Part shown: positions 5,321 to 42,515 of the stretch, piece after piece | Numbering within the stretch: the first letter of the stretch is position 1 | How the letters are laid out: every line of letters starts with the position of its first letter | Source: a virus | Virus record (IMG/VR): IMGVR_UViG_3300025161_000004 | Location: 182,769 to 246,768 of that record | Reading direction: 5' to 3' (one strand) | DNA length: 64,000 nucleotides | The notes under the pieces: model-generated | Told to the model about the DNA's origin: nothing | The model's database searches: none | The model's input: the letters and a program-made list of their open reading frames with translations, nothing else | Position numbers and translations under genes: made by a program

Positions 5321-5348
5321 AAAACCCAAGCAAATTGCTTGGGTTTTC
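5321..5348 (-). terminator. Attenuator terminator of the Pro/Gln/His tRNA operon
   Basis: On the minus strand AAAACCCAAGCAA pairs with TTGCTTGGGTTTT, followed by T-rich sequence, directly before the first tRNA-Pro. The inner 5' arm CCCAAGCAA (plus 5335-5343) can instead pair with TTGCTTGGG inside the leader ORF (plus 5395-5403), which would be an antiterminator. A perfect 9-bp hairpin (ATATCCTAA/TTAGGATAT) separates the two. Confidence 0.8.
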
Positions 5349-5373
5349 TTATAATATCCTAATTTGGATTACT

Positions 5374-5457
5374 TTAGGATATGTGTATAGTTTGCCCAAG
5401 CAACAGCTTTTGTAGCTGATGTTTGGGTTGTGGTACTATAAACACATCCATTTTCAT
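5374..5457 (-). CDS. Leader peptide of the Pro/Gln/His tRNA operon
   Basis: 27-codon ORF from ATG 5457, ending TAA at 5374. Codons 9-16 read P Q P K H Q L Q, with later Q and H, matching the tRNAs immediately downstream (Pro, Pro, Gln, His, Gln); both Gln codons CAA and CAG are used. The stretch CCC AAA CAT CAG C can pair with GCTGTTGCTTGGG further on in the leader (11 of 13 positions), which in turn can pair with the terminator's 5' arm. This is region 1:2 / 2:3 / 3:4 logic as in trp/his attenuators. The role is inferred; peptide function other than ribosome positioning is not expected. Confidence 0.75.
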   Translation of the reverse strand: MKMDVFIVPQPKHQLQKLLLGQTIHIS

Positions 5458-5474
5458 TTCTTTAAAATTTTACA

Positions 5475-5504
5475 CAAAGTTATAACTAAATACGTTAATG
5501 TCAA
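5475..5504 (-). promoter_or_regulatory. Promoter of the Pro/Gln/His tRNA operon
   Basis: Minus strand TTGAC (5500-5504) and TAACTTTG (5475-5482), with 19 nt between TTG and TAACTTTG: the Bacteroidota primary-sigma consensus. GTATTTA (5487-5493) lies in the spacer, 8 nt after TTG and 4 nt before the -7 box, exactly as in the Tyr/Lys and Phe/Asn/Cys operons. Confidence 0.7.
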
Positions 5505-5527
5505 GCAAATGGTTATAATTATTTTTT

Positions 5528-6532
5528 TTATTCTTCGAATGCTCTATCAATATCGTCGTTTCTGAGGTCATAAAAAACATCATCAGCTATTTCTTTTAAC
5601 TTCCTTCTATTTGGTTGACCAGTTAAAATACCATTAATTAAATTAACAAACTCATTATTTTCAGATGGTACTTTATAGAGTTCTTGAAGAAAATACAATA
5701 AAAAATCGGGATACCGATCCAAATATTGTTCAAAGTTATCAATAACATAATCACGTATTTTACTATAAATATCTCTACCGTTTATAATATCATCAAATTC
5801 ACTATCAATGGTATCGGTATATTTAACAAGTTCGGTGTTTTTTTCTTTATCTAATTCAAATCCTTCAATAGAGATAATTTCGAAAAGTGCTTTAGTTATT
5901 TCATGTACCAATACAGGAAATGTTTGTGCTCTCGCAATAATTCTATACACACCATTATTGTATGAGTACGTTGAAGAGCCCGCTGCCATTCCTTGCCTAT
6001 TACTCATAATAGCCATATTGGCTAGTTGATTTTTATCTGCCAAGTGATATATAATATCGTTCGACTTACCCAACTCATCATACATACTAATCAAATTAGG
6101 GTCTATGGCATCTAATCTATCCTTGAGCATGTGAAATATACCATGAGTTGACACTGCAGAACCCTGTGTAATTGCGTTAATTATTCTTCTTTTGTATGCA
6201 GGGTTTTTAAATTCATCAGGAAGGGTTTCTTTTGGTTTTCTTCTTTCGGGTGCATTTACTGTTACATTAGAGCTTAATTTTGCATCAATTTCAATACCAA
6301 ATTTCTCAATAATTGGAAATTGTTCTTTCACTAATTCGATAGCTAAATTTTCCAATTCTTCTTTATGCTGATTTTCTATCTGTTTAACTTGATGTAAATT
6401 TCTCATTACATTACTACCGAGTTGATGTAATGATTGACCTCTCGCAATTTCTTGACTTCTTCTTTTTAGATCTTGTAGATAGTTTGGATCTAAGAAGTCT
6501 TCGTAGTCAACTTCTTTTAATTGTTTTTTCAT
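5528..6532 (-). CDS. Hypothetical phage protein, 334 aa
   Basis: Highly charged and helical, with a basic proline-containing segment around residues 115-135 (PERRKPKETLPDEF). A region with NRQGMAAGSSTYSYNNG and then TFPVLVHEITKALFEI (about 180-225) is the best-conserved-looking core. VHEIT is reminiscent of, but not equal to, the zinc protease HExxH motif, so no protease activity is claimed. Its ATG overlaps the stop of the gene at 6532-6789 (translational coupling), and both share the late motif at 6815. Probably a virion or assembly protein. Confidence 0.6.
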   Translation of the reverse strand: MKKQLKEVDYEDFLDPNYLQDLKRRSQEIARGQSLHQLGSNVMRNLHQVKQIENQHKEELENLAIELVKEQFPIIEKFGIEIDAKLSSNVTVNAPERRKPKETLPDEFKNPAYKRRIINAITQGSAVSTHGIFHMLKDRLDAIDPNLISMYDELGKSNDIIYHLADKNQLANMAIMSNRQGMAAGSSTYSYNNGVYRIIARAQTFPVLVHEITKALFEIISIEGFELDKEKNTELVKYTDTIDSEFDDIINGRDIYSKIRDYVIDNFEQYLDRYPDFLLYFLQELYKVPSENNEFVNLINGILTGQPNRRKLKEIADDVFYDLRNDDIDRAFEE

Positions 6533-6789
6533 TACTTTAATTTATTAAACTTATCTGCAATTTTATTAGCGATTGACATTTCAGACGCTGTAGCAGGTTT
6601 TTTATGACCCTTAGGAGTTGGTTCAGGAGCTTTTTCTGGTGTAGGTAAACGTCTTCTAAGTGGTTTGACTTCCTTCTCTTTATCTGGAGAAGTCTCAACC
6701 TCCTTTTCCCTTTTAGGTTTTTCTGGTTTTGGATTAGTAAATTCTAATAGGGTTTCTTTCACCAATTTTTTTAATTCCTGTAATTTCAT
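6532..6789 (-). CDS. Short Pro/Lys/Glu-rich protein with capsid-targeting-like N-terminus
   Basis: 85 residues. The first 17 (MKLQELKKLVKETLLEF) form an amphipathic helix with an LLE element, followed by a disordered Pro-Lys-Glu segment and a short basic helix. The design resembles T4 internal head proteins, whose N-terminal helix targets them into the prohead and is removed after L/I-x-E by the prohead protease (established for T4). The same type of start occurs at 17518, 17838 and 21894. Late motif AGTATTTAC lies 25 nt upstream. Packaging is inference. Confidence 0.6.
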   Translation of the reverse strand: MKLQELKKLVKETLLEFTNPKPEKPKREKEVETSPDKEKEVKPLRRRLPTPEKAPEPTPKGHKKPATASEMSIANKIADKFNKLK

Positions 6790-6814
6790 AATTAAAATAT
6801 ATTAAAGTATATTA

Positions 6815-6873
6815 GTAAATACTGCTTAAATATATAAAAAATTATACTTTAAGTTATCAAAAGGGTATTTATG
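6815..6873. promoter_or_regulatory. Divergent late-type promoter motifs
   Basis: Minus-strand AGTATTTAC (6815-6823) for the gene ending at 6789; plus-strand GTATTTATG (6865-6873) for the large gene at 6893. The plus box is 19 nt before ATG 6893. Confidence 0.5.
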
Positions 6874-6892
6874 TATAGTGTTTGTACGTAAT

Positions 6893-10877: not shown

Positions 10878-10908
10878 TTGATAATTAATTAAACCTTTTA
10901 TACTTTTG
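10878..10908 (+). promoter_or_regulatory. Promoter of the large tRNA operon
   Basis: TTG at 10878-10880 and TACTTTTG at 10901-10908, spacer 20 nt, matching the Bacteroidota primary-sigma consensus. Unlike the other tRNA operons, GTATTTA is not in the spacer but just downstream (10913). Confidence 0.7.
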
Positions 10909-10936: not shown

Positions 10937-11029
10937 ATGGAAAACTTAATATTAGATATGGCAGTCGTAGCAGAAGCGTTGGTTTTAGACGCTGAGTGGA
11001 ATTGTATTGGGTTTTCTATTAAGAGATAA
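10937..11029 (+). CDS. Leader peptide of the Trp/Glu/Val/Ala/Asp/Leu/Met tRNA operon
   Basis: 30 codons, ATG 10937 to TAA 11027. Residues 7-21 read DMAVVAEALVLDAEW; 19 of the first 21 residues belong to the set Ala, Val, Glu, Leu, Asp, Met, Trp, exactly the amino acids of the tRNAs that follow up to 14093. The last nine residues contain none of them. Leu codons are TTA and TTG only, matching tRNA-Leu(TAA) and (CAA) in this operon. AATGGAAAACTTAAT (10936-10950) can pair with ATTGGGTTTTCTATT (11006-11020), which can also pair with the terminator's 5' side. Interpreted as an attenuator leader. Confidence 0.8.
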   Translation: MENLILDMAVVAEALVLDAEWNCIGFSIKR

Positions 11030-11064
11030 TTGAATTTAAAATTATACAAATAGAAAACCCGATC
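11006..11064 (+). promoter_or_regulatory. Antiterminator of the large tRNA operon
   Basis: ATTGGGTTTTCTATT (11006-11020) is complementary over 15 consecutive positions (one G-T wobble) to AATAGAAAACCCGAT (11049-11063), which includes most of the terminator's 5' arm. The two structures exclude each other. Confidence 0.75.
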
Positions 11065-11086
11065 ACAAAAAAGATCGGGTTTTTTG
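11054..11086 (+). terminator. Attenuator terminator of the large tRNA operon
   Basis: AAAACCCGATC / GATCGGGTTTT stem around a short A-rich loop followed by a T run: a textbook intrinsic terminator, placed between the leader ORF and the first tRNA. Confidence 0.85.
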
Positions 11087-11188
11087 TTTTATAGCTTTTG
11101 TAGATGACAAAAGCAATTTTGAGATATTTGATCTATAGTCACACCCATTTACATGTGCAAAATATGTTCTTTGAAATTTTGTAATATA

Positions 11189-11262
11189 CACATCTATAGT
11201 TTAATTGGTAAAACGATAGTCTCCAAAACTATAAATTTCAGTTCGAGTCTGAATAGATGTGC
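11189..11262 (+). tRNA. tRNA-Trp(CCA)
   Basis: Anticodon stem ATAGT/ACTAT, loop CTCCAAA, anticodon CCA. Acceptor CACATCT/AGATGTG. First tRNA of the operon; TGG occurs once in the leader, at codon 21 close to the antiterminator. Confidence 0.88.
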
Positions 11263-11267
11263 GAAAT

Positions 11268-11339
11268 GCTCGGTTCGTCTAACGGTTAGGACACATGGTT
11301 TTCAACCATGGAATAGGGGTTCGATTCCCCTATCGAGTA
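11268..11339 (+). tRNA. tRNA-Glu(TTC)
   Basis: Acceptor GCTCGGT/ATCGAGT with a G1-T72 wobble; stem CATGG/CCATG, loop TTTTCAA, anticodon TTC. Confidence 0.92.
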
Positions 11340-11375
11340 CTTTAAATTCTTTTTTCCTGTTAGGAATTAAGATAT

Positions 11376-11450
11376 GTTGCCGTAGCCAAATGGAATAAGG
11401 CACAACACTTTCAATGTTGTAATGTGTGGGTTCGAGTCCCATCGGCAATA
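11376..11450 (+). tRNA. tRNA-Glu(TTC), second copy
   Basis: Acceptor GTTGCCG/CGGCAAT (G1-T72 wobble); anticodon stem CAACA/TGTTG, loop CTTTCAA, anticodon TTC. The sequence is very different from the neighbouring Glu copy. Confidence 0.88.
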
Positions 11451-11464
11451 CGAAAAAAATAAAT

Positions 11465-11539
11465 GCCCTTGTAGCTCAGTAGGTTCAGAGCAACACTCTT
11501 ACAAAGTGAAGGTCATAGGTTCGATTCCTGTCAAGGGCA
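11465..11539 (+). tRNA. tRNA-Val(TAC)
   Basis: Acceptor GCCCTTG/CAAGGGC, anticodon loop CTTACAA, anticodon TAC, T-arm GGTTCGATTCC. One A-A mismatch at the outer anticodon-stem pair. Confidence 0.9.
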
Positions 11540-11636
11540 CTTAAAAATATGTTTAAGTTATGAAGAACAATTACAGCTTGGACGCAAGAGAAAATTCTCA
11601 AAAAGATTCGATAGAAACTTTGAATTGTTTTTGAGA

Positions 11637-11975
11637 ATGTATAGAACACAATTAATTACATTCTGTGGTTCTGAAGTAAAAGTTGTGTTTGATGTAAATG
11701 GTCTTGATGGAAAGAATTGTTTCAATAATTATGAAAATGGTTTATATAAACATAAAGAAACAATTGTAACAAGACACCCAAACATTGTAAGAGCTGTAAT
11801 AACATCAAAAAGGGGTTGGGGTCTTTGGGTTGGTGAATGGAGTAGAGGAATTAGTGAAGGGTTATTTAGTAAAGATGACATACTAAATGAGTTTGAAATA
11901 AGAAATATTAAATTACCAGAGTTCTTATTAAAAGAGTTTGATAATTTAATACATAAAAAAAATATGGGGCTATAG
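11637..11975 (+). CDS. Hypothetical protein inside the tRNA operon
   Basis: 112 residues from ATG 11637; an in-frame TTG lies at 11625, and a 24-codon ORF (11560-11634) overlaps it in another frame. The core KRGWGLWVGEWSRGISEGLFSKDDILNEF is compact and protein-like, but no family is recognised. The stop codon TAG is formed by bases of the following tRNA-Ala (the gene overlaps the tRNA by 10 nt). An inverted repeat (AATTCTCAAAAA / TTTTTGAGAAT) spans the start region and could hide the initiation site. Confidence 0.55.
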   Translation: MYRTQLITFCGSEVKVVFDVNGLDGKNCFNNYENGLYKHKETIVTRHPNIVRAVITSKRGWGLWVGEWSRGISEGLFSKDDILNEFEIRNIKLPEFLLKEFDNLIHKKNMGL

Positions 11976-12038
11976 TTTAATTGGCTAAAATTCCTGACTT
12001 GCACTCAGGGGATCAGGGTTCAAGTCCCTGTAGCTCCA
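11966..12038 (+). tRNA. tRNA-Ala(TGC)
   Basis: Acceptor GGGGCTA/TAGCTCC with the G3-U70 wobble that identifies tRNA-Ala; stem CCTGA/TCAGG, loop CTTGCAC, anticodon TGC. Confidence 0.94.
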
Positions 12039-12104
12039 CTGTTCTTTACCATAGGTAGGTAAAGTACAAAGGCTTTATAACGTTGTACCCACAACGTTTA
12101 TAAC

Positions 12105-12175
12105 GTGAATGTGGTGTAATGGATTGCATATGATACTGTCACTATCAAGGTTGGGGTTCGAGTCCCCCATTCACG
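12105..12175 (+). tRNA. tRNA-Asp(GTC)
   Basis: Acceptor GTGAATG/CATTCAC, discriminator G; stem TGATA/TATCA, loop CTGTCAC. First of three Asp tRNAs in 400 bp. Confidence 0.92.
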
Positions 12176-12272
12176 GCAAAAACTGGTACTAATACCGAAC
12201 TGACTGCAATCAAAGTAGGTAAAAGTAAAGGTTACTTTAATTGAAATCGTTGCAGCAATAGAAATTAAAGTT

Positions 12273-12340
12273 TAGCTATAGGTGTATTGGTGCATATTCT
12301 GCGTTGAGCTGAAATGGAAAGTTCGAATTTTTATAGCTAG
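12273..12340 (+). pseudogene. tRNA-like sequence, probably decayed
   Basis: A 7-bp acceptor TAGCTAT/ATAGCTA and a T-loop GTTCGAAT frame a tRNA-sized element between two Asp tRNAs, but the anticodon arm TTCTG-CGTTGAG-CTGAA has a T-T mismatch and G at position 33. If functional the anticodon would be TTG, otherwise it is a degenerate tRNA. Confidence 0.4.
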
Positions 12341-12349
12341 CAAAATATA

Positions 12350-12421
12350 GTGCGTTGGTGTAGTGGTCTAACATGCTTGCCTGTCACGCAAGAGATCATG
12401 AGTTCAAATCCCATACGCACT
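12350..12421 (+). tRNA. tRNA-Asp(GTC), second copy
   Basis: Stem CTTGC/GCAAG, loop CTGTCAC, anticodon GTC; acceptor GTGCGTT with TACGCAC has one mismatch at position 7. Confidence 0.87.
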
Positions 12422-12433
12422 GCAAAAATTATT

Positions 12434-12505
12434 GGTCTATTGGGGTTATGGGTATGCTTCCAAACTGTCACTTTGGAGAAACGGGTTCGAGTCCCGTATA
12501 GACCG
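12434..12505 (+). tRNA. tRNA-Asp(GTC), third copy
   Basis: Acceptor GGTCTAT/ATAGACC, discriminator G; stem CCAAA/TTTGG, loop CTGTCAC. The three Asp tRNAs differ strongly in their stems. Confidence 0.88.
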
Positions 12506-12526
12506 CCAAAAATTATTAATAGTAAA

Positions 12527-12619
12527 ATGGGTGAATGTTATGTATATCGAGATTGTAAGAAGTGTGGGGTTGAGATATATCCGTTTGTTTCCAAAATTGT
12601 TAAATCGTTATCACAGTGA
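12527..12619 (+). CDS. Short zinc-ribbon-like fragment
   Basis: 30 codons from ATG 12527 after tRNA-Asp. The start MGECYVYRDCKKCGVEIYP has the C-x5-C-x2-C spacing of a truncated zinc ribbon. Another frame continues from about 12600 to 12743 with a helical, Lys-rich sequence, so this may be a frameshifted two-part gene. Function unknown. Confidence 0.35.
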   Translation: MGECYVYRDCKKCGVEIYPFVSKIVKSLSQ

Positions 12620-12865
12620 TAATGATATGACAATTATAAGACTAATTAGTAATGAGATTATTAATAATAAAGAAATCACTGGTGTAATTAATAAGAAAGA
12701 ATTAGAGAAAGAAATACAAAAAACATTAGAAATAAAGAAATGAGAAATCATAACATATATAGTGAACGATTATACTACCAATAGTAGCGATTAGTTACTG
12801 TCAACAATAGCTTTTAAATTTTGAAAGTCTTTACTGTTATAAAATAAATTAAAGTCATAAAATAT

Positions 12866-13027
12866 AAAATCACTAAAGAAAAATTAGAATTAGTTGTTGA
12901 AAAATCATTATTTTTTTCAGATATTTGTAAAGATTTAAATATTAGATTTGTTGGCATAAATTATAAAAGTGTTAAATCAAAATTAAAAGAATATAATATT
13001 AATACTGATTTAATACAGATCTATTGA
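12866..13027 (+). pseudogene. N-terminal fragment of an HNH-type homing endonuclease
   Basis: A reading frame without its own ATG encodes about 53 residues with FSDICKDLNIRFVGINYKSV followed by SKLKEYNINTDLI. This is the DNA-binding head that precedes the HNH domain in many phage homing endonucleases (G-x-NYK...EYNIDT). The catalytic half is missing. Its place between tRNA genes suggests decay of a former free-standing homing endonuclease. Confidence 0.5.
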
Positions 13028-13123
13028 ATCATGGAAATAGATTTAGAACTTTCGGATTAAATAAATGAGAATCATTAAAAATTTATATTAGTGTTTATCT
13101 GAAAAAAAAAGAAAAGCATAAAT

Positions 13124-13209
13124 GCCTCTGTGGTGAAATCGGTAGACACGCTACACTTAAGATGTAGTTCTCATTAATGGGAGTACAGGTTCGAGTCCTG
13201 TCAGAGGTA
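13124..13209 (+). tRNA. tRNA-Leu(TAA)
   Basis: Class II tRNA with a long variable arm; acceptor GCCTCTG/CAGAGGT (G1-T72), stem CTACA/TGTAG, loop CTTAAGA, anticodon TAA, discriminator A. Confidence 0.94.
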
Positions 13210-13303
13210 CAAACTAAATTAAAATGCCTTGTGAAAAAAGAAAGTTACATTGAATGAAAGATTGAAACATTAAGAAAAGAATTAACAAACATTAAATAGT
13301 GTA

Positions 13304-13312
13304 GTATTTATA
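13304..13312 (+). promoter_or_regulatory. Late-type promoter motif
   Basis: GTATTTATA 15 nt upstream of ATG 13328. It allows the small membrane-protein gene inside the tRNA operon to be expressed separately. Confidence 0.5.
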
Positions 13313-13327
13313 AGAAATTATAATACT

Positions 13328-13558
13328 ATGAAAAAAGTGATTGAATTTGTATTAAATCCACTAAAAATGCTTGCTCTTTGCGGTGTTTGTTTTGGTGTGG
13401 CATTCGTTGATTCGTTGATTCATGATGCATCATCTATGGCTGATTTGTCAATTGTTGGTAAAATATTTACTGGTATATTTATGGTTGGCTTTACCATATT
13501 AGTTATTAGATATTTATTGTTACCATTATATTATTGGTTAATCAGTTTGGTTCAATAA
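13328..13558 (+). CDS. Small two-helix membrane protein
   Basis: 76 residues with two hydrophobic segments (MLALCGVCFGVAFVDSL and GIFMVGFTILVIRYLLLPLY) joined by a short loop. Size and topology would fit a holin-like protein or other small phage membrane protein, but no signature decides this. It lies between tRNA-Leu(TAA) and tRNA-Leu(CAA) with its own late motif. Confidence 0.6.
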   Translation: MKKVIEFVLNPLKMLALCGVCFGVAFVDSLIHDASSMADLSIVGKIFTGIFMVGFTILVIRYLLLPLYYWLISLVQ

Positions 13559-13567
13559 AAACCAGAA

Positions 13568-13649
13568 GCACCAATGATGGAACTGGTAGTCATGCTTGTC
13601 TCAAAAGCAAGTGTCGAAAGACGTGTAGGTTCGAGTCCTACTTGGGGTA
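13568..13649 (+). tRNA. tRNA-Leu(CAA)
   Basis: Class II; anticodon stem CTTGT/GCAAG with loop CTCAAAA gives CAA; variable arm GTGTCGAAAGACGT; T-arm GTAGG TTCGAGT CCTAC. Acceptor GCACCAA/TTGGGGT carries a G1-T72 wobble and an A-G mismatch at pair 3. Confidence 0.85.
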
Positions 13650-13726
13650 CTAAACAGCATTTGACAAACATATTTTAAATGCTTATTTTGAACACATCCT
13701 AATTGCTTCGGTTGCAATTATGGATT

Positions 13727-13984
13727 ATGAACTCTAATAGTAGAGAAAATGACAAAAGATGGGTAATTCCAAGTCTTGATGTAAGACTGCCTCAACCATC
13801 TCAAGTCATAAACCGAGAACCCATCCGTTACTGGATGGTCGAACTAACCCTTACGAGTGGTGATGTTCAGAATTTTTATGTGAAGGCAAAAACATCAATT
13901 GATGCATTGGTAAAAGCAAACGAACTAAAAAATCGTTTTGAAATACCAAGACTTCGAAAACGTAAATTAATCTTAGTTGATTAA
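13727..13984 (+). CDS. Hypothetical protein in the tRNA operon
   Basis: 85 residues from ATG 13727. A central beta-rich stretch (IRYWMVELTLTSGDVQNFYV) is followed by a helix and a basic tail (RLRKRKLILVD). The order strand-strand-helix resembles the small domain in which residues are read as X-FYVKAKTSIDAL, seen in phage orphan proteins, but no family name can be given. It sits between tRNA-Leu(CAA) and tRNA-Met. Confidence 0.5.
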   Translation: MNSNSRENDKRWVIPSLDVRLPQPSQVINREPIRYWMVELTLTSGDVQNFYVKAKTSIDALVKANELKNRFEIPRLRKRKLILVD

Positions 13985-14021
13985 TTTCCCTTGCACAATT
14001 CCCTGTTTTAACAGGGAACAT

Positions 14022-14093
14022 GGCGATATAGTATAATGGGTATTACATCTCCCTCATAAAGAGAAGATTGCAGTTCGATTCTGCATGTCGCTA
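14022..14093 (+). tRNA. tRNA-Met(CAT)
   Basis: Acceptor GGCGATA/TGTCGCT with G1-T72 wobble, loop CTCATAA, anticodon CAT. Elongator Met or lysidine-modified Ile cannot be told apart; the leader of this operon has two internal ATG/AUG contexts. A small hairpin (CCCTGTTTTAACAGGG, 14001-14016) precedes it. Confidence 0.85.
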
Positions 14094-14167
14094 CTAACTA
14101 CTAATTGGAAAGTTGAATACCATTCTATTTTAAACGCTATGTAACTAATTTTTATTTAGAAATCACT

Positions 14168-16058: not shown

Positions 16059-17114
16059 GTGAAATTAAATAATGATATATTGAATAAATTGATTGATGAT
16101 GGTTATGTTATGGTTAATAATCATCCATCTCTACCTTTAAGAATTTATAATTATACTCGCAAAACTCAGTTTGAAAAATATTGGAACGAATATACATTAT
16201 TATGTCGTGGACTTATTCTTGATCATGATTTAAATGTTATCGCTAGACCTTTCATGAAGTTCTTCAATTATGAAGAACATAAACCAGAAGAAATTCCAAA
16301 TACAAATTTTGAAGTCTATGAAAAGGTAGATGGTTCATTGGGTATTATATTTAATTATGCAAATGAATGGCATATTGCCACCAGAGGTTCATTTGTATCA
16401 GAACAAGCTATTAGAGCTAAATCAATGCTTAGCAGATATAATATCGATGGTTTAGATTCTGAAAAGACTTATTTGGTTGAAATTATCTATCCAGAAAATC
16501 GTATTGTTGTTGATTATTTTGGTGAAGAAAAATTAGTGTTGTTAGCTGTTGTTGACATTAAAACAGGACATGATATGCCATATTCACATATGAAATATCA
16601 TACCTATATGCGTAAAATAGATTTCCCATTAATTAAATATTATGATGGTATTAATGATATTTTTGAATTAAGCAAACGTAACAATCAAAATGAAGAGGGT
16701 TACGTGTTAAGATATGAAAATGGATTTCGTGTAAAAATTAAATTTGAGAATTATTGTCGTCTACATGCAATCATTACCAATCTATCAACTAAAGATATTT
16801 GGAAATATTTACGTGATGGTAAAGATATTAATGAATTGCTTGATCGCACACCAGATGAATTTGATGATTGGGTAAGAAATGAAATGAAGTCATTAACTGA
16901 CAGGTATTTGGCAATTGAATCTGAAGCAAAATTAATATTTTCTAAAATTTATGTGGATGGTATGTCAAGAAAAGATTTTGCAATGAAAGCATTGAATGAA
17001 AATCATTCACCAATTTTATTTAAGATATTAGAAAATAAACCATATGATAGTATTATATGGAAAATGATTGAACCAAAATATTCAAAAGCATTCTTTAAAG
17101 AAGAAGGTAATTAG
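16059..17114 (+). CDS. rnlA: T4 RnlA-type RNA ligase
   Basis: 351 residues from GTG 16059. The nucleotidyltransferase motif I EKVDGSLG (about 90-97) holds the AMP-accepting Lys; RGSFVSEQA follows as in T4 RNA ligase 1, then LVEIIYPENRIVVDY (motif IIIa/IV region), EEGYVLRYENG (motif IV) and VKIKFENY (motif V). In T4 this enzyme with Pnkp repairs tRNA cut by host anticodon nucleases. A Pnkp homologue is at 29394 and a cPPR protein at 9453, so a full 'cut-heal-seal' repair route for the many phage tRNAs is likely. Confidence 0.9.
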   Translation: MKLNNDILNKLIDDGYVMVNNHPSLPLRIYNYTRKTQFEKYWNEYTLLCRGLILDHDLNVIARPFMKFFNYEEHKPEEIPNTNFEVYEKVDGSLGIIFNYANEWHIATRGSFVSEQAIRAKSMLSRYNIDGLDSEKTYLVEIIYPENRIVVDYFGEEKLVLLAVVDIKTGHDMPYSHMKYHTYMRKIDFPLIKYYDGINDIFELSKRNNQNEEGYVLRYENGFRVKIKFENYCRLHAIITNLSTKDIWKYLRDGKDINELLDRTPDEFDDWVRNEMKSLTDRYLAIESEAKLIFSKIYVDGMSRKDFAMKALNENHSPILFKILENKPYDSIIWKMIEPKYSKAFFKEEGN

Positions 17115-24466: not shown

Positions 24467-24483
24467 CTAAAAATTATTAATTT

Positions 24484-25941
24484 ATGAAAACAATTAATTT
24501 AATCCCGAATTTAATTCTAAGAACTGATAGCTATAAACTTAGTCACTGGAAACAATATCCGAAAGGTATGACTAAAGTATATTCATATCTTGAAAGTAGA
24601 GGTGGTGCATATCCTGCAACACTATTCTTTGGATTGCAATATTTCTTAAAGCAATTAGAGGGTGTTGTGATTACCATGAAAGACGTTGAAGACGCTGATA
24701 AATTTTCAAAAGCACACTTTGGGAGTGATATCTTTAATAAAGAAGGTTGGAAATATATTGTTAAAGTACATGGTGGCAAACTCCCAATTCGTATTAAAGC
24801 GGTGAAAGAGGGTACATTAGTACCAACACGTAATGTTTTGATGACTATTGAAAATACTGATGAAAATTGTTTCTGGTTAACTAATGCAATGGAAACAATG
24901 CTAATGCGTATTTGGTATCCGATTACAATTGCAACAAATAGTTTTTATGCAAAACAAATGATAGCAAAATATTTAAAAACCAGTGCAAATGATTTAAATT
25001 CATTACCTTTTAAACTTCATGATTTCGGATATCGTGGTGTGTCAAGTGAAGAAAGTGCTGGTGTTGGTGGTATGGCTCACTTGGTAAATTTCATGGGTAC
25101 AGATACTCTTGCAGCAATTGTATATTCTAATGAATATTATAATGCTGGTGGTGTAAATGCATTTTCAGTTCCTGCATCTGAACACTCTGTGGCTTGTTCA
25201 TTTGGAAAAGAAAATGAAGAAGAATATTTCTTGAACATGCTTAATCAGTATCCTACAGGTATTGTATCGATAGTATCTGACACATATGATGTATTCAATT
25301 TTGTTGATTCTATGTCGAAGAAACATAAAAAGAAAATTCTTGAACGTCAAGGTACTACAGTATTTCGTCCTGATTCTGGGGATCCGATTGATGTTAATGT
25401 TAAATTAATCAACATCCTTTGGAATGTGTTTGGTGATGTAGGTTCTATTACTAAAACAGGACATAAATTATTACCACCACAAGTACGACTTATTCAAGGT
25501 GATGGTATTGATTTGAAAACATTAGATCAAATTCTTAAAACTGTTACTGACTTAGGATTCTCAGCTGAAAATTGGGTGTTCGGTTCTGGTGGTGGGCTTC
25601 TTCAAAAATTTGATCGTGATACATTGAAGTTTGCGATTAAAGCATCCTATGGTGAGAGAATAGTTGATGGAAATCGTCTAGAATTTGATATTCAGAAAGA
25701 CCCTATCACTTCATCTGGTAAGAAAAGTAAAGCAGGTAAATTGAAATTGGTAAAATCTCAATTAGATGGTGAGTTTTTCACTGTAACAAGTGAGCACCCA
25801 CATTTCGAAAAATTTAAAGATGAATTAGAGGTTGTATTTGAAAACGGTGAGATTAAGAGAACTCAGCAATTCGAAGAGATAAGAGTTCTTGCAAATTCAT
25901 TTATAAAAATTAATTCAGATGTAGAATATCAGAATCACTGA
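24484..25941 (+). CDS. nadV: Nicotinamide phosphoribosyltransferase
   Basis: 485 residues, usual length for NadV/NAMPT. Recognisable elements: LRTDSYKLSHWKQYPKGM (N-terminus), YSYLESRGG, FKLHDFGYRGVSSEESAG (about 178-195), FSVPASEHSVACSFG (about 236-250), VSDTYDVFNFV and FRPDSGDP (about 296-303), and GDGID. These line the phosphoribosyl and nicotinamide sites. It converts nicotinamide and PRPP to NMN, the substrate of the upstream NadM, while the downstream gene makes PRPP. 17-nt and 53-nt gaps suggest one operon. Confidence 0.95.
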   Translation: MKTINLIPNLILRTDSYKLSHWKQYPKGMTKVYSYLESRGGAYPATLFFGLQYFLKQLEGVVITMKDVEDADKFSKAHFGSDIFNKEGWKYIVKVHGGKLPIRIKAVKEGTLVPTRNVLMTIENTDENCFWLTNAMETMLMRIWYPITIATNSFYAKQMIAKYLKTSANDLNSLPFKLHDFGYRGVSSEESAGVGGMAHLVNFMGTDTLAAIVYSNEYYNAGGVNAFSVPASEHSVACSFGKENEEEYFLNMLNQYPTGIVSIVSDTYDVFNFVDSMSKKHKKKILERQGTTVFRPDSGDPIDVNVKLINILWNVFGDVGSITKTGHKLLPPQVRLIQGDGIDLKTLDQILKTVTDLGFSAENWVFGSGGGLLQKFDRDTLKFAIKASYGERIVDGNRLEFDIQKDPITSSGKKSKAGKLKLVKSQLDGEFFTVTSEHPHFEKFKDELEVVFENGEIKRTQQFEEIRVLANSFIKINSDVEYQNH

Positions 25942-25994
25942 ATTATAAAATAAGATAGTTCAATACTTAAATTTACAATATTAATAGAAGCAAT

Positions 25995-26924
25995 ATGATA
26001 AAAATTTTCCCACAATCGAATAGTCTTAAATTTACTGAGCAACTGGTAAATTCTAATTCTGTATTGGAAACTGGTAGAGCAAATTACTATAGTTTGGGTA
26101 AAATACATAAGACCAAATTTGCTAATGGTGAGATTACTGTTGTATTTGAAGAATCGGTTCGAAATGAATCGATTGTGATTGTATCACAACCAAAAACATA
26201 TGAAGATATTTTCGAACTTCTTGAGACAATTGATGCAGCAAGAAGATCTTCAGCGAAAGAAATCATCGGAGTGATACCATCATTACCACATTCAAGACAA
26301 GAAAGAAGAGAGAATGGTGTAAGAACAACAATCTCGGCAAGATTAATTGCTGATATATTACAAGTTGCTGGTCTTGACAGATTAATAACTATGGATGTTC
26401 ATACTACCGCCATTGAAGGATTTTATAAAATACCATTTGATAATATTGATCCTTTTGATAGTATTCTAAAAAAAATAAAAACATTGAATTTGCAAAACCC
26501 TACAATTGTATCACCAGATTTTGGCGGTATGAAACGAGCAAAAAAATATGCTAATAAGTTAGGGTATAATATAGCATTCATTAGTAAGGAAAGATTAAAA
26601 GCAAATGAAGTTGAAAGTATGACATTAATTGGATCAGTAAAAGATTCGGATGTCATTATTGTTGATGATATGATTGATACTGGTGCTACTATATTGAAAG
26701 GGCTTGATTTGCTTAAAGAGAATGGTGCAAAGAACTTTTATGTATTTGCTACACATGGTGTATTTTCTAATGACGCTATTAATAAGTTTGCAACTAATCA
26801 TAATTTTCCACATGTTTACATAACAAATACAATACCTGTAGATAATCATAGTAATTTTGTTAACATTAAAGAAATTAATGTTATTTCCGAATTTGATAAG
26901 GCATTAAGAAAAATTTTTATATAA
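25995..26924 (+). CDS. prs: Ribose-phosphate pyrophosphokinase (PRPP synthase)
   Basis: 309 residues. Contains PSLPHSRQERRE (the Mg-ATP flexible-loop region, about 95-106), VRTTISARLIADIL, ITMDVHTTAIEGF and the PRPP-binding IVDDMIDTGATILKG (about 217-231). It supplies PRPP for NadV next door and for nucleotide synthesis. Its stop overlaps the next start (TAATG). Confidence 0.95.
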   Translation: MIKIFPQSNSLKFTEQLVNSNSVLETGRANYYSLGKIHKTKFANGEITVVFEESVRNESIVIVSQPKTYEDIFELLETIDAARRSSAKEIIGVIPSLPHSRQERRENGVRTTISARLIADILQVAGLDRLITMDVHTTAIEGFYKIPFDNIDPFDSILKKIKTLNLQNPTIVSPDFGGMKRAKKYANKLGYNIAFISKERLKANEVESMTLIGSVKDSDVIIVDDMIDTGATILKGLDLLKENGAKNFYVFATHGVFSNDAINKFATNHNFPHVYITNTIPVDNHSNFVNIKEINVISEFDKALRKIFI

Positions 26925-32553: not shown

Positions 32554-32583
32554 TTGATTTAAAAGTATTTAGTACTATATTTG
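32554..32583 (+). promoter_or_regulatory. Promoter of the Tyr/Lys tRNA operon
   Basis: TTG (32554-32556), GTATTTA (32565-32571) and TATATTTG (32576-32583), spacer 19 nt. GTATTTA is 8 nt after TTG and 4 nt before the -7 box, the same geometry as in two other tRNA operons. Confidence 0.75.
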
Positions 32584-32599: not shown

Positions 32600-32668
32600 A
32601 TGATAACTATTAAGAAATATTATTATAAAAAGTCTTCAAAAGTGAAGATCAGTAATACTATATCTTAA
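32600..32668 (+). CDS. Leader peptide of the Tyr/Lys tRNA operon
   Basis: 22 codons, ATG 32600 to TAA 32666. Residues 5-11 read KKYYYKK, and the operon's two tRNAs are tRNA-Tyr(GTA) and tRNA-Lys(TTT). Directly after the Tyr/Lys run, TCTTCA and TGAAGA (32633-32648) form a small hairpin (regions 1:2). Region 2, GTGAAGATCAG (32642-32652), can instead pair with CTGATCTTCAC (32693-32703), the 5' arm of the terminator. A ribosome waiting on Tyr or Lys codons would cover region 1 and favour read-through. This is the simplest of the five attenuators and the easiest to check. Confidence 0.8.
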   Translation: MITIKKYYYKKSSKVKISNTIS

Positions 32669-32686
32669 CAGTAATATAAAAAAATA

Positions 32687-32724
32687 AAAACCCTGATCTT
32701 CACAAAAAGATCAGGGTTTTTATT
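32687..32724 (+). terminator. Attenuator terminator of the Tyr/Lys tRNA operon
   Basis: AAAACCCTGATC / GATCAGGGTTTT stem followed by T's, ending 5 nt before tRNA-Tyr. The 5' arm and loop can pair with 11 consecutive bases of the leader ORF. Confidence 0.85.
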
Positions 32725-32728
32725 TTTT

Positions 32729-32812
32729 GGGAGTGCGCTAACGTTGGAGTGTTAGGCTTGTCTGTAAAACAAGTGCCTGTTGGCTTAGTAGGTTCGAATC
32801 CTACCACTCCCA
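32729..32812 (+). tRNA. tRNA-Tyr(GTA)
   Basis: Class II; acceptor GGGAGTG/CACTCCC, stem CTTGT/ACAAG, loop CTGTAAA, long variable arm TGCCTGTTGGCTTA, T-loop TTCGAAT, discriminator A. Confidence 0.95.
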
Positions 32813-32869
32813 CAATAAACCATATAGAAAAAAATGAAAGCTAAACAAAGTAAACGAAAACACTAATTT

Positions 32870-32899
32870 AATCACACCTCATGACTAAGAGGTGTGATT
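32870..32899 (+). other. Perfect 11-bp hairpin between tRNA-Tyr and tRNA-Lys
   Basis: AATCACACCTC / GAGGTGTGATT around an 8-nt loop, with no T run after it, so not an intrinsic terminator. Could be a processing signal or RNA-stabilising element. Confidence 0.6.
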
Positions 32900-32906
32900 G
32901 GTCAAT

Positions 32907-32993
32907 CCCCTCTTAGCTCTAATTGGCGAGTCGAAAGACGAGAGCTTCTGACTTTTAATCAGAAGGTTGCTGGTTCGAATCCAGCAGAGGGGA
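32907..32993 (+). tRNA. tRNA-Lys(TTT) with enlarged D-arm
   Basis: Acceptor CCCCTCT/AGAGGGG, anticodon arm TCTGA/TCAGA with loop CTTTTAA, T-arm GCTGG TTCGAAT CCAGC. The D-loop contains about 13 extra nucleotides with a potential GTC-GAAA-GAC mini-hairpin. Anticodon nucleases such as PrrC target tRNA-Lys in other systems, so an altered D-arm could matter; that is inference. Confidence 0.88.
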
Positions 32994-33136
32994 CAAAAAA
33001 AATATTTTTTATTATAATTATCTTTGATAACCATTGTAAGACATATAGTATTTTATACCAGTTCTTATTTACGTAAAAGTTATATAGTATTGAATATTAT
33101 TCAAATTAATGTGTTTTAGTGTTTAGCTTTTTTATT

Positions 33137-39348: not shown

Positions 39349-39380
39349 TAAAAAAGAATGTATTTAATAATATATTACGA
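39349..39380 (+). promoter_or_regulatory. Weak promoter of the Thr/Arg/Ile tRNA operon
   Basis: GTATTTA (39360-39366), 4 nt before TATATTAC (39371-39378), has the same spacing as in the other tRNA operons, but the -7 box departs from TAnnTTTG and the -33 TTG is replaced by TAA. Confidence 0.4.
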
Positions 39381-39387: not shown

Positions 39388-39465
39388 ATGAAAAATATAA
39401 TCACAATTACCCAAATTACAAGGATAAGAGGTACAAAAACCTCAAGTAATGGGTTTATTGTGTGA
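39388..39465 (+). CDS. Leader peptide of the Thr/Arg/Ile tRNA operon
   Basis: 25 codons, ATG 39388 to TGA 39463. Residues 4-14 read IITITQITRIR: ten of eleven are Ile, Thr or Arg, and the tRNAs that follow are Thr(TGT), Arg(TCT), Arg(ACG) and Ile(GAT). Both Arg codons are AGG/AGA, read by tRNA-Arg(TCT). GGGTTTAT plus GTGT (39451-39463) can pair with ACAC-ATAAACCC (39488-39499), which overlaps the terminator's 5' arm; the same segment can pair with ACAATTACCCAAATTAC earlier in the ORF. A GAGGT/ACCTC hairpin (39428-39443) may act as a pause site. Confidence 0.78.
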   Translation: MKNIITITQITRIRGTKTSSNGFIV

Positions 39466-39493
39466 AATTTTTTAGTTAATATCTTTAACACAT

Positions 39494-39520
39494 AAACCCG
39501 ATAAAAAATCGGGTTTTTTT
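39494..39520 (+). terminator. Attenuator terminator of the Thr/Arg/Ile tRNA operon
   Basis: AAACCCGAT / ATCGGGTTT stem with an A-rich loop and a T run, between the leader ORF and tRNA-Thr. Confidence 0.85.
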
Positions 39521-39631: not shown

Positions 39632-39716
39632 GCTTGGGTCGCATAGAGGTCGATTGCGCCTGACTTGTAATCAGGAGAGTTTATACTCCACGTGGGTTCG
39701 AATCCCACCTCAAGCT
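39632..39716 (+). tRNA. tRNA-Thr(TGT) with a long variable arm
   Basis: Acceptor GCTTGGG/CTCAAGC, stem CCTGA/TCAGG, loop CTTGTAA, anticodon TGT, T-arm GTGGG TTCGAAT CCCAC. The variable region (AGAGTTTATACTCCAC) can form a hairpin as in class II tRNAs (Leu, Ser, Tyr), which is abnormal for Thr. First two acceptor pairs G1-C72 and C2-G71 agree with Thr identity. T73 is unusual. Confidence 0.85.
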
Positions 39717-39721
39717 CATTT

Positions 39722-39793
39722 GCCTCTGTAGTTCAATGGATAGAACATTTGACTTCTAATCAAAAGATACAGGTTCGACTCCTGTCAGGGGTA
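39722..39793 (+). tRNA. tRNA-Arg(TCT)
   Basis: Acceptor GCCTCTG/CAGGGGT with wobble pairs, stem TTTGA/TCAAA, loop CTTCTAA, anticodon TCT; decodes AGA/AGG, the Arg codons used in the operon's leader. Confidence 0.93.
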
Positions 39794-39887
39794 CTAAAAC
39801 TTAGTTCAGTATTTTTTTTTAAATAAGCAATAATTTTAATTTAAAAATATTTTATTTTAGATAAATGGTTTTCAGGTTAAAGTTTAT

Positions 39888-39960
39888 ATCTCCATAGTTT
39901 AATTGGACAAAATAGATGACTACGAATCATCAGTTATAGGTTCGAATCCTATTGGAGATA
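39888..39960 (+). tRNA. tRNA-Arg(ACG)
   Basis: Acceptor ATCTCCA/TGGAGAT, stem GATGA/TCATC, loop CTACGAA, anticodon ACG. Confidence 0.93.
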
Positions 39961-39964
39961 CAAA

Positions 39965-40087
39965 GAAGTGTGTTTAGCTTAAAATGTCCATTAGTAATGA
40001 TAGAGAGAGTTACTAATGCTTAAATGATAGAGTCCCTCGCTCTCTGTAAGAGGTGGATGTAGAAATTGACTAACTACAACACACTTC
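39965..40087 (+). ncRNA. Structured, possibly split or expanded tRNA-like element
   Basis: GAAGTGTG (39965-39972) and CACACTTC (40080-40087) form an 8-bp closing stem, followed inside by TTTAGC as in a tRNA D-arm. The interior has an 8-bp hairpin (ATTAGTAA/TTACTAAT) and a CCTC...GAGG stem, but no proper anticodon or T-arm. Could be a tRNA with an insertion, a degenerate tRNA, or a separate structured RNA. Confidence 0.4.
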
Positions 40088-40202
40088 ATATGATATTACT
40101 ATATATCTTAATTAGTTAAGGTATGAAGTCGATACTTACGAGATTACGGGTTCAAATTCAGTCTTGACTACTAAGTGGGTTATGTGGAATTTCTTTCAAC
40201 AT

Positions 40203-40277
40203 TGTCGGATAGCTCAGTTTGGTTAGAGCACAAAGCTGATACCTTTGGGGTCGCTGGTTCGAATCCAGTTCCGACAA
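40203..40277 (+). tRNA. tRNA-Ile(GAT)
   Basis: Acceptor TGTCGGA/TCCGACA, stem CAAAG/CTTTG, loop CTGATAC, anticodon GAT, T-arm GCTGG TTCGAAT CCAGT. Confidence 0.92.
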
Positions 40278-40291
40278 CATTATTTTTTTTT

Positions 40292-41033: not shown

Positions 41034-41163
41034 TATCGGTTTTAAAACAATTTTTTAGATAAAAATTATTTACTAAATCCCATATTTTTTTCATTACTAA
41101 AATAACCGAATTATAAAATTTATCGTATAATATATTTATACTTAATATTTAATTTATTCTATT

Positions 41164-41433
41164 ATGAATTTTGGTTTAAAAGAAAAAATCATTGAATTGC
41201 GCAAACAAAAATTAACTTACAATCAGATAGCCGAAAGGCTGAATTGTGCCAAATCTACTATTTCATATCATTGTCAAAAAGAGGGTTTAGATGACATCGG
41301 ATTAAAACTTAATCCTGTCGAAAAAAATGTCGTGAAACAAATTAAGAGCTTTACTCGTAATAATTCTTTAAATGCTGCTGTCAAACATTTTGGATTGTCA
41401 AAAACGACAATTATAAAATATAAGAAATTATAA
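41164..41433 (+). CDS. Double helix-turn-helix DNA-binding protein
   Basis: 89 residues with two HTH units: QKLTYNQIAERLNCAKSTIS (about 14-33) and NSLNAAVKHFGLSKTTIIKY (about 66-86). This arrangement is that of small phage regulators or homing-endonuclease DNA-binding heads that lost the nuclease. The next gene starts 1 nt after its stop. Regulatory target unknown. Confidence 0.75.
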   Translation: MNFGLKEKIIELRKQKLTYNQIAERLNCAKSTISYHCQKEGLDDIGLKLNPVEKNVVKQIKSFTRNNSLNAAVKHFGLSKTTIIKYKKL

Positions 41434-41434
41434 A

Positions 41435-41881
41435 ATGCTTGTGGAAAGTATAGGTGGTGAGTGTCCATGCTGTAACTATGATAAAATGTTACAACGACAT
41501 GGCTCATCGGAGTACTATCTTTTGGATGGCTGTCCAAATTGTGGTTTTGGATATGGTACTAATCATCATGATTTACATAATTTCGGTATTGATGCTTGGA
41601 TTGATTACGGTAGACATGTGTTAGCATCCATATTCTCTCATTCTATTGATGGTGAGTTTTATTTAGTAGATGATAGTAAATTTGAGCATGATGATATACG
41701 ATATTATTTGTTGAATAATGATTTAAAAAAGTTGGATAAAGATGTTCTCAGAAAAAGAATATTTGATTGGATGGAAACACAAGATATAAAGTCTGACAGT
41801 ATCACCGTATTTCGATATAATCGTGTTGATGTTGAAAGATGGTTATCTACTAATCCAATGATATTTAAAAAAATTGATTGA
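41435..41881 (+). CDS. Zinc-ribbon protein
   Basis: 148 residues. An N-terminal zinc ribbon GECPCCNYDKML...DGCPNCGFGYG (two CxxC-type pairs, about 9-41) is followed by an acidic alpha-beta domain (FEHDDIRYYLLNNDLKKLD, DVERWLSTNPMIF). The combination is known from phage proteins of unknown function. Co-transcribed with the HTH gene. Confidence 0.6.
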   Translation: MLVESIGGECPCCNYDKMLQRHGSSEYYLLDGCPNCGFGYGTNHHDLHNFGIDAWIDYGRHVLASIFSHSIDGEFYLVDDSKFEHDDIRYYLLNNDLKKLDKDVLRKRIFDWMETQDIKSDSITVFRYNRVDVERWLSTNPMIFKKID

Positions 41882-41927
41882 TGATTAAGGAAAAAAAATA
41901 TCAAACACAATTTTGTAAAATAAGGTA

Positions 41928-42035
41928 GTGAAAGAAGAAATCTATAAGAAACATTACAATGGAATGATTGAATGTTTTAAATTATCTGAATTACCTACAA
42001 ATCTAGAACCTGACGATTTAATTGTATTCCATTAA
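41928..42035 (+). CDS. Short ORF, 35 aa
   Basis: GTG 41928 to TAA 42033. KEEIYKKHYNGMIECFKLSE followed by LPTNLEPDDLIVFH resembles the N-terminus of a longer conserved phage protein; probably a truncated copy. Confidence 0.35.
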   Translation: MKEEIYKKHYNGMIECFKLSELPTNLEPDDLIVFH

Positions 42036-42050
42036 ATTATATGATTAATT

Positions 42051-42278
42051 ATGATTTGGATTGACGCTAATGTAGAACTCCCAGATGAATTTATACATGT
42101 ATATGTTAAAATTCGCAGAAGAAAAAGAATTATAAAGGAGGTTGCTTTTTATTCCGCAGAAAGAAAAGAATTTTTTACTAAGTCAGGTGATACGTTTAAA
42201 ACAAAATATGTTCAATGGCTAAAAGATAACGACTACTTAAAAGAATCAAGTAAAATGAAAAAAATAATCAAAAAATAA
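42051..42278 (+). CDS. DUF551-like protein
   Basis: 75 residues: MIWIDANVELPDEFIHVYVK, KRIIKEVAFYSAERKEFFT and VQWLKDNDYLKE. The W...LP......V.V......V..W pattern is that of DUF551, common in phages and thought to be a small beta domain. Function unknown. Confidence 0.7.
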   Translation: MIWIDANVELPDEFIHVYVKIRRRKRIIKEVAFYSAERKEFFTKSGDTFKTKYVQWLKDNDYLKESSKMKKIIKK

Positions 42279-42289
42279 TAAACCTTTTC

Positions 42290-42319
42290 TTGGCAAGAAC
42301 GTATTTATGTGTATATTTG
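42290..42319 (+). promoter_or_regulatory. Promoter of the Phe/Ile/Ser/Gly/Asn/Leu/Cys tRNA operon
   Basis: TTG (42290-42292), GTATTTA (42301-42307) and TATATTTG (42312-42319) with a 19-nt spacer; the GTATTTA element sits 8 nt after TTG and 4 nt before the -7 box. Confidence 0.78.
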
Positions 42320-42338
42320 CAGAAAAATAAGAAGAAAA

Positions 42339-42458
42339 ATGAAATTTTTAAATCTAAATAATAATCCTTCGAACCTGAATAGTAATTTTATATCAGGGAA
42401 TATTTTTCTTGGTACTTGTCAAGAGAAGTCGGGTTATTCTTTAGATTTTGGTGGATGA
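42339..42458 (+). CDS. Leader peptide of the Phe/Ile/Ser/Gly/Asn/Leu/Cys tRNA operon
   Basis: 39 codons from ATG near 42339 to TGA near 42456. Residues 3-22 read FLNLNNNPSNLNSNFISGNI and continue FLGTC; 23 of these 25 residues are Phe, Leu, Asn, Ser, Ile, Gly or Cys, matching the tRNAs up to 44374. Leu codons include CTA, CTG and CTT, read by the Leu(TAG) and Leu(AAG) tRNAs of this operon; ATA is read by Ile(TAT). AATAATCC (42360-42367, within the triple AAT run) can pair with GGGTTATT (42431-42438), while GTCGGGTT (42428-42435) can pair with the terminator's AACCCGAC. Classic attenuator layout. Confidence 0.8.
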   Translation: MKFLNLNNNPSNLNSNFISGNIFLGTCQEKSGYSLDFGG

Positions 42459-42495
42459 TAAACTAAAACAACTAAAGAAATCAAGAAAACCCGAC
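42428..42495 (+). promoter_or_regulatory. Antiterminator of the Phe-Cys tRNA operon
   Basis: GTCGGGTT (42428-42435) plus TTCTTTAG just after it can pair with CTAAAGAA...AACCCGAC (42473-42495), 16 bp with an internal loop, competing with the terminator stem. Confidence 0.65.
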
Positions 42496-42515
42496 ACAAA
42501 AGTCGGGTTTTTTAT
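42486..42515 (+). terminator. Attenuator terminator of the Phe-Cys tRNA operon
   Basis: AAAACCCGAC / GTCGGGTTTT stem followed by T's, located 80 bp before tRNA-Phe. Confidence 0.85.

Follow-up and report, generated by a model that had tools for sequence, protein, structure and literature searches.

Why bacteriophages carry transfer RNA (tRNA) genes, and when these genes are expressed, is an old open question which is addressed here with the final 64 kb of the 246,768-b IMG/VR virus record IMGVR_UViG_3300025161_000004 (64,000 nucleotides, positions 182,769 to 246,768; hereafter the window). In this window, 33 tRNAs lie in five operons, whose amino-acid sets {P,Q,H}, {W,E,V,A,D,L,M}, {Y,K}, {T,R,I} and {F,I,S,G,N,L,C} jointly comprise all 20 amino acids. 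Each of the five begins with a leader open reading frame (ORF) of 22-39 codons, followed by an intrinsic terminator whose 5' arm is complementary to the ORF end. The leaders and the tRNAs that follow them are MKMDVFIVPQPKHQLQKLLLGQTIHIS with PPQHQ, MENLILDMAVVAEALVLDAEWNCIGFSIKR with WEEVADDDLLM, MITIKKYYYKKSSKVKISNTIS with YK, MKNIITITQITRIRGTKTSSNGFIV with TRRI, and MKFLNLNNNPSNLNSNFISGNIFLGTCQEKSGYSLDFGG with FISGGSNLLC. The initial annotation had described these tRNA sets and leaders, all of which were recovered where it had placed them. We estimate a probability of about 90% that each such phage tRNA operon is governed by its own ribosome-mediated transcription attenuator. The supporting observations concern the architecture of the unit, the cognate content of its reading frame, a trend towards the isoacceptors encoded downstream, covariation, the geometry of two competing structures, and the spread of the unit over phage lineages.

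The match between leader and operon was quantified for 38 units of seven phages, with every leader taken from a single detector with fixed rules: an ORF of 14-45 codons, a terminator within 70 nt of the ORF end, at least six bases of the leader end paired with the terminator arm, and a tRNA within 900 nt downstream. Over all loci, this detector yielded 91 candidate units, a few of them spurious. When leaders were permuted among the operons within a phage, the true assignment ranked first in seven of seven phages (1/120, 1/24, 1/24, 1/720, 1/5040, 1/5040 and 1/120, with 1/120 for the window; summed log10 rank fractions, -17.2), and for 35 of the 38 leaders the own operon was the best-scoring partner. 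The leader core holds 144 of the 146 tRNA identities of its operon. From residue 8 to residue -10, 71% of the residues are cognate versus 24% expected from phage proteins; for the final nine residues, the usual place of the segment that pairs with the terminator (region 2), the values are 25% and 20%. The cognate fraction is 0.71 in frame 0, 0.22 and 0.17 in frames 1 and 2, and 0.26 on the reverse strand. The proposal that the leaders are packed with matching amino acids is thereby borne out, both in the window and against controls, and chance or base composition as the source of the match was ruled out by the permutations, the other frames, the reverse strand and shuffles.

The elements of the five operons in the window are as follows.

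5475-5482, minus strand: promoter -7 element of operon 1, TAACTTTG, of the Bacteroidota type TAnnTTTG; GTATTTA at 5487-5493
5374-5457, minus strand: leader ORF of operon 1, MKMDVFIVPQPKHQLQKLLLGQTIHIS, control codons Pro/Gln/His
5394-5405, minus strand: region 2 of operon 1, at the end of the leader and complementary to the 5' arm of the terminator
5320-5348, minus strand: intrinsic terminator of operon 1, regions 3:4
4787-5284, minus strand: tRNAs Pro, Pro, Gln, His, Gln
10937-11029, plus strand: leader ORF of operon 2, MENLILDMAVVAEALVLDAEWNCIGFSIKR; TACTTTTG at 10901-10908
11002-11021, plus strand: region 2 of operon 2
11048-11089, plus strand: intrinsic terminator of operon 2, regions 3:4
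11190-14094, plus strand: tRNAs Trp, Glu, Glu, Val, Ala, Asp (three), Leu(TAA), Leu(CAA), Met, with small ORFs interspersed
32576-32583, plus strand: promoter -7 element of operon 3, TATATTTG
32600-32668, plus strand: leader ORF of operon 3, MITIKKYYYKKSSKVKISNTIS
32642-32653, plus strand: region 2 of operon 3, GTGAAGATCAGT
32679-32728, plus strand: intrinsic terminator of operon 3, regions 3:4
32729-32994, plus strand: tRNA-Tyr (32729-32812) and tRNA-Lys(TTT) (32907-32994)
39388-39465, plus strand: leader ORF of operon 4, MKNIITITQITRIRGTKTSSNGFIV, start placed after the extension MYLIIYYDKT; GTATTTA at 39360
39450-39459, plus strand: region 2 of operon 4
39494-39516, plus strand: intrinsic terminator of operon 4, regions 3:4
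39632-40278, plus strand: tRNAs Thr, Arg(TCT), Arg(ACG), Ile(GAT)
42312-42319, plus strand: promoter -7 element of operon 5, TATATTTG
42339-42458, plus strand: leader ORF of operon 5, MKFLNLNNNPSNLNSNFISGNIFLGTCQEKSGYSLDFGG
42427-42442, plus strand: region 2 of operon 5
42484-42513, plus strand: intrinsic terminator of operon 5, regions 3:4
42596-44375, plus strand: tRNAs Phe, Ile(TAT), Ser(GCT), Gly, an unusual tRNA, Gly, Ser(TGA), Asn, Leu(TAG), Leu(AAG), Cys

Two tRNA assignments in operon 3 differ from those of ARAGORN, which does not call the tRNA-Tyr (an Rfam tRNA match at 32729-32812, anticodon GTA) and reports as Leu(gag) the gene at 32907, which has the anticodon loop CTTTTAA and reads as Lys(TTT). 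The unusual tRNA-like gene of operon 5 (43040-43110) has a six-base anticodon loop (CTTGC TACGCA GCAAG) and is ambiguous in identity. The promoter motif TAnnTTTG lies 5' of 21 of the 38 leaders versus 2.9 expected. A second motif, GTATTTA, occurs with the TAnnTTTG promoters of the leaders at 5487, 10913, 32565, 39360 and 42301, and also at other gene starts; depending on the class it is found about 5 bp upstream of TAnnTTTG or just downstream of it, a placement that resembles that of an operator.

An attenuator of this kind requires structures that exclude each other, and the initial annotation had postulated pairings 1:2, 2:3 and 3:4, with 9, 15, 11, 12 and 16 bp between leader end and terminator arm. 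The complementarity itself was confirmed, with 8-15 contiguous bp in the window in place of those lengths; counted with interruptions, the five operons have 10, 17, 10, 8 and 13 pairs. Region 2 ends a median of 13 nt 5' of the leader stop codon. Its pairing energy with the terminator arm is -13.8 kcal/mol versus -6.1 kcal/mol in shuffles, and the mean predicted energies are -15.1 kcal/mol for 2:3 and -17.1 kcal/mol for 3:4. The expected switch was obtained in an in silico ribosome scan, in which the control codons were occupied one by one and the RNA beyond the ribosome was folded: a simulated stall gave the predicted 2:3 antiterminator at 96% of the control-codon positions of the 38 units, while with a ribosome at the stop codon all 38 units formed the terminator and only three formed 2:3. 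Folded directly, the window segments adopt the 2:3 state in operons 1, 2 and 3 and the 3:4 state in operons 4 and 5.

Comparison between homologous units is in line with the 2:3 stem. RNAalifold recovers it unprompted in three of four classes and is uninformative for the long leaders of the CNISFGTR class, which align poorly. Compensatory changes, which had been suggested as a check, are present in 2:3, with six cells in the YK class, three in the PQH class (zero broken pairs in 84 cells) and one in the DEVLAW class. The 1:2 pairing fared less well; at -8.7 versus -7.3 kcal/mol in codon shuffles (p=1e-4 over units, weak per unit) it is little better than in shuffled leaders, and the classical arrangement of four segments is thus supported in part. 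A two-structure switch between 2:3 and 3:4 would suffice and is better supported than an obligatory 1:2 pairing.

From these features we infer leader translation, switching in vivo, the sign of the switch and its physiological trigger in the following form. RNA polymerase would start at the Bacteroidota-type promoter and transcribe a leader ORF dense in cognate codons. With charged tRNAs plentiful, the ribosome would reach the leader end and cover region 2, whereupon 3:4 would fold and the tRNAs would remain off. If any listed tRNA became scarce, be it through too little host-encoded tRNA, anticodon nuclease cleavage or degradation, the ribosome would stall on its codon and leave region 2 free to pair with region 3; the 2:3 structure, once formed, would block the terminator and allow the operon to be read through. 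Because a stall at nearly any codon before region 2 would leave region 2 free, the leader would act as an OR gate with as many as eight or nine tRNA species as its inputs, and because the operon product is the sensed tRNA, the products would close a negative feedback loop in which supply is driven by demand.

The same unit recurs in related phages, and its leaders change with the tRNA content. Relatives were collected by an RNR search of viral contigs (61 found), and the longer records among them were examined wherever they carry tRNAs; the leader-terminator-tRNA unit is present in about 20 related jumbo-phage records. Within the clade of the window, orthologous operon classes are found whose tRNA content drifts between members. 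Most members have Thr/Arg fused to Cys/Asn/Ile/Ser/Phe/Gly, with T and R codons gained in the leader; a separate Thr/Arg/Ile operon with its own leader is kept in the window and in one relative (L035). Likewise, where Leu(CTN) tRNAs have joined the Phe/Ile/Ser set, CTN codons have been gained in the leader. Units are also found in the megaphages LR745206, LR756500, LR756501, LR756502 and LR756504, with very different tRNA groupings. In LR745206 and LR756502 these are P/D/Q (P/Q/H in the window clade), H/F/W/K, R/S, E/Y, I/G/A and N/L/V/I/T/M/R. LR756504 has an E/A/I/V/G operon with MKTVNTNIAIVEIAVIGGAEEG... and an L/S/C operon with MKAMILSLCLSLSLSLQK..., LR756501 an R/A/T/V/G/P operon with ...TPAPAVAFRRGTGTGTGTCVPAG, LR756500 an A/L/P/Y/Q/G/T operon with MKTLSTYPLGQAQTLGTPPITG, and Prevotella phage Lak-A1 a single unit, an H/P/R/G/C/M operon with MKTLNMTYGMHPVCGMVHMFPCGGGRPM.... 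Narrower attenuators can be nested: MTTSFQQQQQQQINRTD stands ahead of four Gln tRNAs inside the P/D operon of LR756502, and in a second instance MKTTIKNTSSRSRSSKSG stands ahead of Arg/Ser. The prediction that leader composition follows tRNA content in relatives thus holds, also after regrouping (LR745206, LR756502, LR756501, LR756504).

Two further observations concern these relatives. Leaders of the D/E/V/L/A/W class (in L082, L085, L100, L102 and others) carry a conserved CUCCUUUCUU between leader stop and terminator, which we take to resemble the 3' terminus of 16S rRNA in Bacteroidota; it is absent from the window. In LR756508, Leu and Asn tRNAs are preceded at a distance of about 680 nt by MSRFHTLPLINILNANLALANNNPISLSGSSALDA with a complementary terminator (L242:4398-4505), a possible but doubtful case in a further lineage of huge phages.

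What the leaders sense is the point on which the most serious competing explanation turns. It accepts the same attenuator and takes the signal to be amino-acid starvation or a general slowdown of translation, with the tRNAs serving codon-usage compensation rather than replacement. Classical attenuators of like design do sense amino-acid supply (PMC1183508), and it is always amino acids that the leaders list. The codons, however, tend to track the isoacceptor, beyond the amino acid. In a test of split codon boxes, which used only operons with one isoacceptor family of the box and pooled homologous units, the leader codons were distributed 12:2 vs 5:10 for Leu (p=0.008), 39:17 vs 2:6 for Ser (p=0.021), 13:6 vs 14:25 for Ile (p=0.026) and 5:1 vs 2:9 for Arg (p=0.035), each below 0.05 and none strong by itself. 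In the window, the leader of operon 2, with Leu(TAA) and Leu(CAA) tRNAs, has TTA/TTG, and that of operon 5, with Leu(TAG) and Leu(AAG), has mostly CTN. This lean towards the downstream isoacceptor points to leaders that would sense individual tRNAs rather than amino acids.

Furthermore, the window contains a gene for a T4 Rnl1-type RNA ligase (16059-17114), and a tRNA nucleotidyltransferase is encoded elsewhere in the virus genome, a pair that suits tRNA damage and with which tRNA loss or insufficiency would be the most consistent trigger. For the stall that releases the matching tRNAs, the initial annotation had named codon bias, starvation and anticodon-nuclease attack as causes. A shortage of tRNA fits; amino-acid starvation is probably the least likely of the three, because making more tRNA cannot cure a shortage of amino acids. 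The competing explanation as a whole is considered rather unlikely. We lean towards the view that huge Bacteroidota phages keep their tRNA sets as self-regulating circuits at the level of isoacceptors, in which tRNA loss, chiefly via host anticodon nucleases, would activate just the set that contains the replacement. The window also has genes for a cytidyltransferase/NUDIX protein, a nicotinamide phosphoribosyltransferase and a phosphoribosyl pyrophosphate (PRPP) synthetase that follow one another at 23534-26924, a nicotinamide adenine dinucleotide (NAD) salvage set which could counter NAD-depleting defences.

The sign of the switch might also be the opposite, with free or fast translation leading to read-through and stalling to termination. 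Untranslated leaders terminate in some attenuators (super-attenuation via 1:2), and 1:2 pairing here slightly exceeds chance; given the median 13-nt distance, however, a ribosome at the stop covers region 2 and the terminator remains, while a stalled ribosome leaves region 2 free, and the opposite sign appears very improbable. Even less credit is given to direct sensing of the tRNA by RNA, as by a T-box-like or other tRNA-binding riboswitch, with an incidental leader ORF. T-boxes do respond to uncharged tRNA ahead of genes for aminoacyl-tRNA synthetases; yet the match here runs codon by codon in one reading frame from ATG to stop, and an Rfam scan of the phage leaders at E<=1 gave no T-box motif, specifier loop or other known leader family apart from a sub-threshold Trp_leader (25.1 bits versus 41 needed), with no match of the Trp, His, Leu or Thr leader families at gathering score. 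A last alternative takes the leader ORFs for ordinary small proteins, the terminators for mere insulation and the match for chance and base composition. It would agree with short, low-complexity leaders and with terminators known ahead of tRNA operons elsewhere, but the permutation and frame tests refute it. The shuffle controls, the recurrence with new groupings in distant megaphages, and the lack of such leaders at the T4, RaK2, XacN1 and host-type tRNA loci, with chance matches only in phiCbK, also speak against it.

The unit is specific to certain tRNA operons. A scan of the whole record for a short ORF with a complementary terminator found the tRNA operons and two other reading-frame 3' ends, one of them that of the capsid gene; the faster version used there missed operon 2, which was recovered in the window analysis. 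Clear cognate leaders were absent from T4, RaK2, XacN1, cr108_1 and LR756511, and a trait common to tRNA-rich phages in general was accordingly rejected; matches in phiCbK and LR756511, whose operons hold nearly all amino acids, were put down to chance. The head and tail set encoded by the virus record is T4-like and includes a major head protein, a terminase, a portal and a sheath. Its capsid protein, at most about 40% identical over partial length to any phage of a reference collection, has near relatives in two Bacteroidota metagenome-assembled genomes (MAGs). Host-type tRNA loci of two Bacteroidota MAGs lack a cognate leader, by which a host-derived system was rejected, and phage contigs in one of the two bins do carry cognate leaders.

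Several points weigh against the proposed attenuators. Transcription-translation coupling in Bacteroidota is an assumption. Operon limits and some start codons of the 38 units were curated after their content was known, the fixed detector also returns spurious units, and its demand for at least six paired bases means that strong 2:3 pairing was in part selected for. Because units of the window clade are homologous, they cannot be counted as independent cases; a cleaner test is given by the units of the megaphages. It had also been claimed that every tRNA operon of the window has the unit, which is true of the five multi-tRNA operons and fails for the amber tRNA at 47732 and the Cys/Cys pair at 48587-48737. 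Single tRNAs lack it even within carrier phages, as do most tRNA groups of Lak-A1, where re-reading with TAG as Gln gave zero additional leaders, and several groups of LR756500. Finally, the tRNA-dense contigs L204 and L205 of a Bacteroidales MAG are without any unit; they form a contrast set for learning which phages lack attenuators.

The amber tRNA (anticodon CTA) at 47732 is followed by two frames with an in-frame TAG directly after the start. The first (47971-48324, ATG AAA AGG TAG...), when read through, encodes a peptidyl-tRNA hydrolase, Pth2 (PF01981, E 3.9e-9), and the second (48321-48578) begins ATG AAA TAG...; by sequence both look like genes gated by amber suppression.

The tRNA arrays of T4, phiCbK, XacN1 and the huge phages (PMC7162821) likewise form clusters that supplement or replace host tRNAs, but leader-terminator control has not been described for them, and T4, phiCbK, RaK2 and XacN1 have no cognate leaders; the main text of Al-Shayeb (2020; PMC7162821) contains neither 'leader' nor 'attenuat'. 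Leader peptides were described by Naville and Gautheret for Proteobacteria, Actinobacteria and Firmicutes (PMC2965389). In the open-access literature, no report was found of leader-peptide attenuation acting on tRNA genes, nor of its presence in phages or Bacteroidota, in agreement with the initial annotation, and its use for tRNA genes is likely new. The leaders record in sequence which tRNAs would be sensed jointly and would tie supply to demand; they may serve as natural multi-input translation sensors, and the leader-terminator signature could be used to find responses to tRNA shortage in metagenomes.

Leaders that read several amino acids are known from thr (Thr and Ile) and ilvGMEDA (Ile, Val and Leu), and pheST of Escherichia coli is a leader-controlled aminoacyl-tRNA synthetase. 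In Firmicutes, hisS and hisZ are under leader control (PMC2965389 for hisS). The phage units share with the former the use of more than one control amino acid and with pheST and hisS/hisZ a target in tRNA charging, but all those products are enzymes, whereas the product of the phage unit is the sensed tRNA and the loop would be direct. T-box riboswitches also sense tRNA shortage by antitermination before translation-related genes; they differ in binding the tRNA directly, without a leader ORF. The closest likeness is to the enterobacterial trp, his, leu, thr, ilvGMEDA and pheA leaders, with which the phage units share a short ORF with cognate control codons and a mutually exclusive antiterminator and intrinsic terminator, and in both a shortage of charged tRNA would be read by a stalled ribosome (PMC1183508). 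With a short leader ORF holding at least two control codons cognate to the regulated product, a mutually exclusive II:III antiterminator with covariation (few independent changes) and an intrinsic terminator III:IV that separates the leader from the structural genes, the units are, as judged from their sequences, ribosome-mediated attenuators in kind (PMC1183508). The genes downstream are tRNAs with some small ORFs, not biosynthetic or synthetase genes, and in this the units depart from the attenuators of amino-acid biosynthesis. Unlike their enterobacterial counterparts, they occur in Bacteroidota phages, target tRNA genes instead of biosynthetic enzymes, would sense up to eight or nine amino acids with a tendency to follow the isoacceptor, have region 2 mostly within the ORF, do not need a strong 1:2 pairing and occur in nested copies; leader-peptide attenuation would thus be extended to phages and to tRNA genes as its targets.

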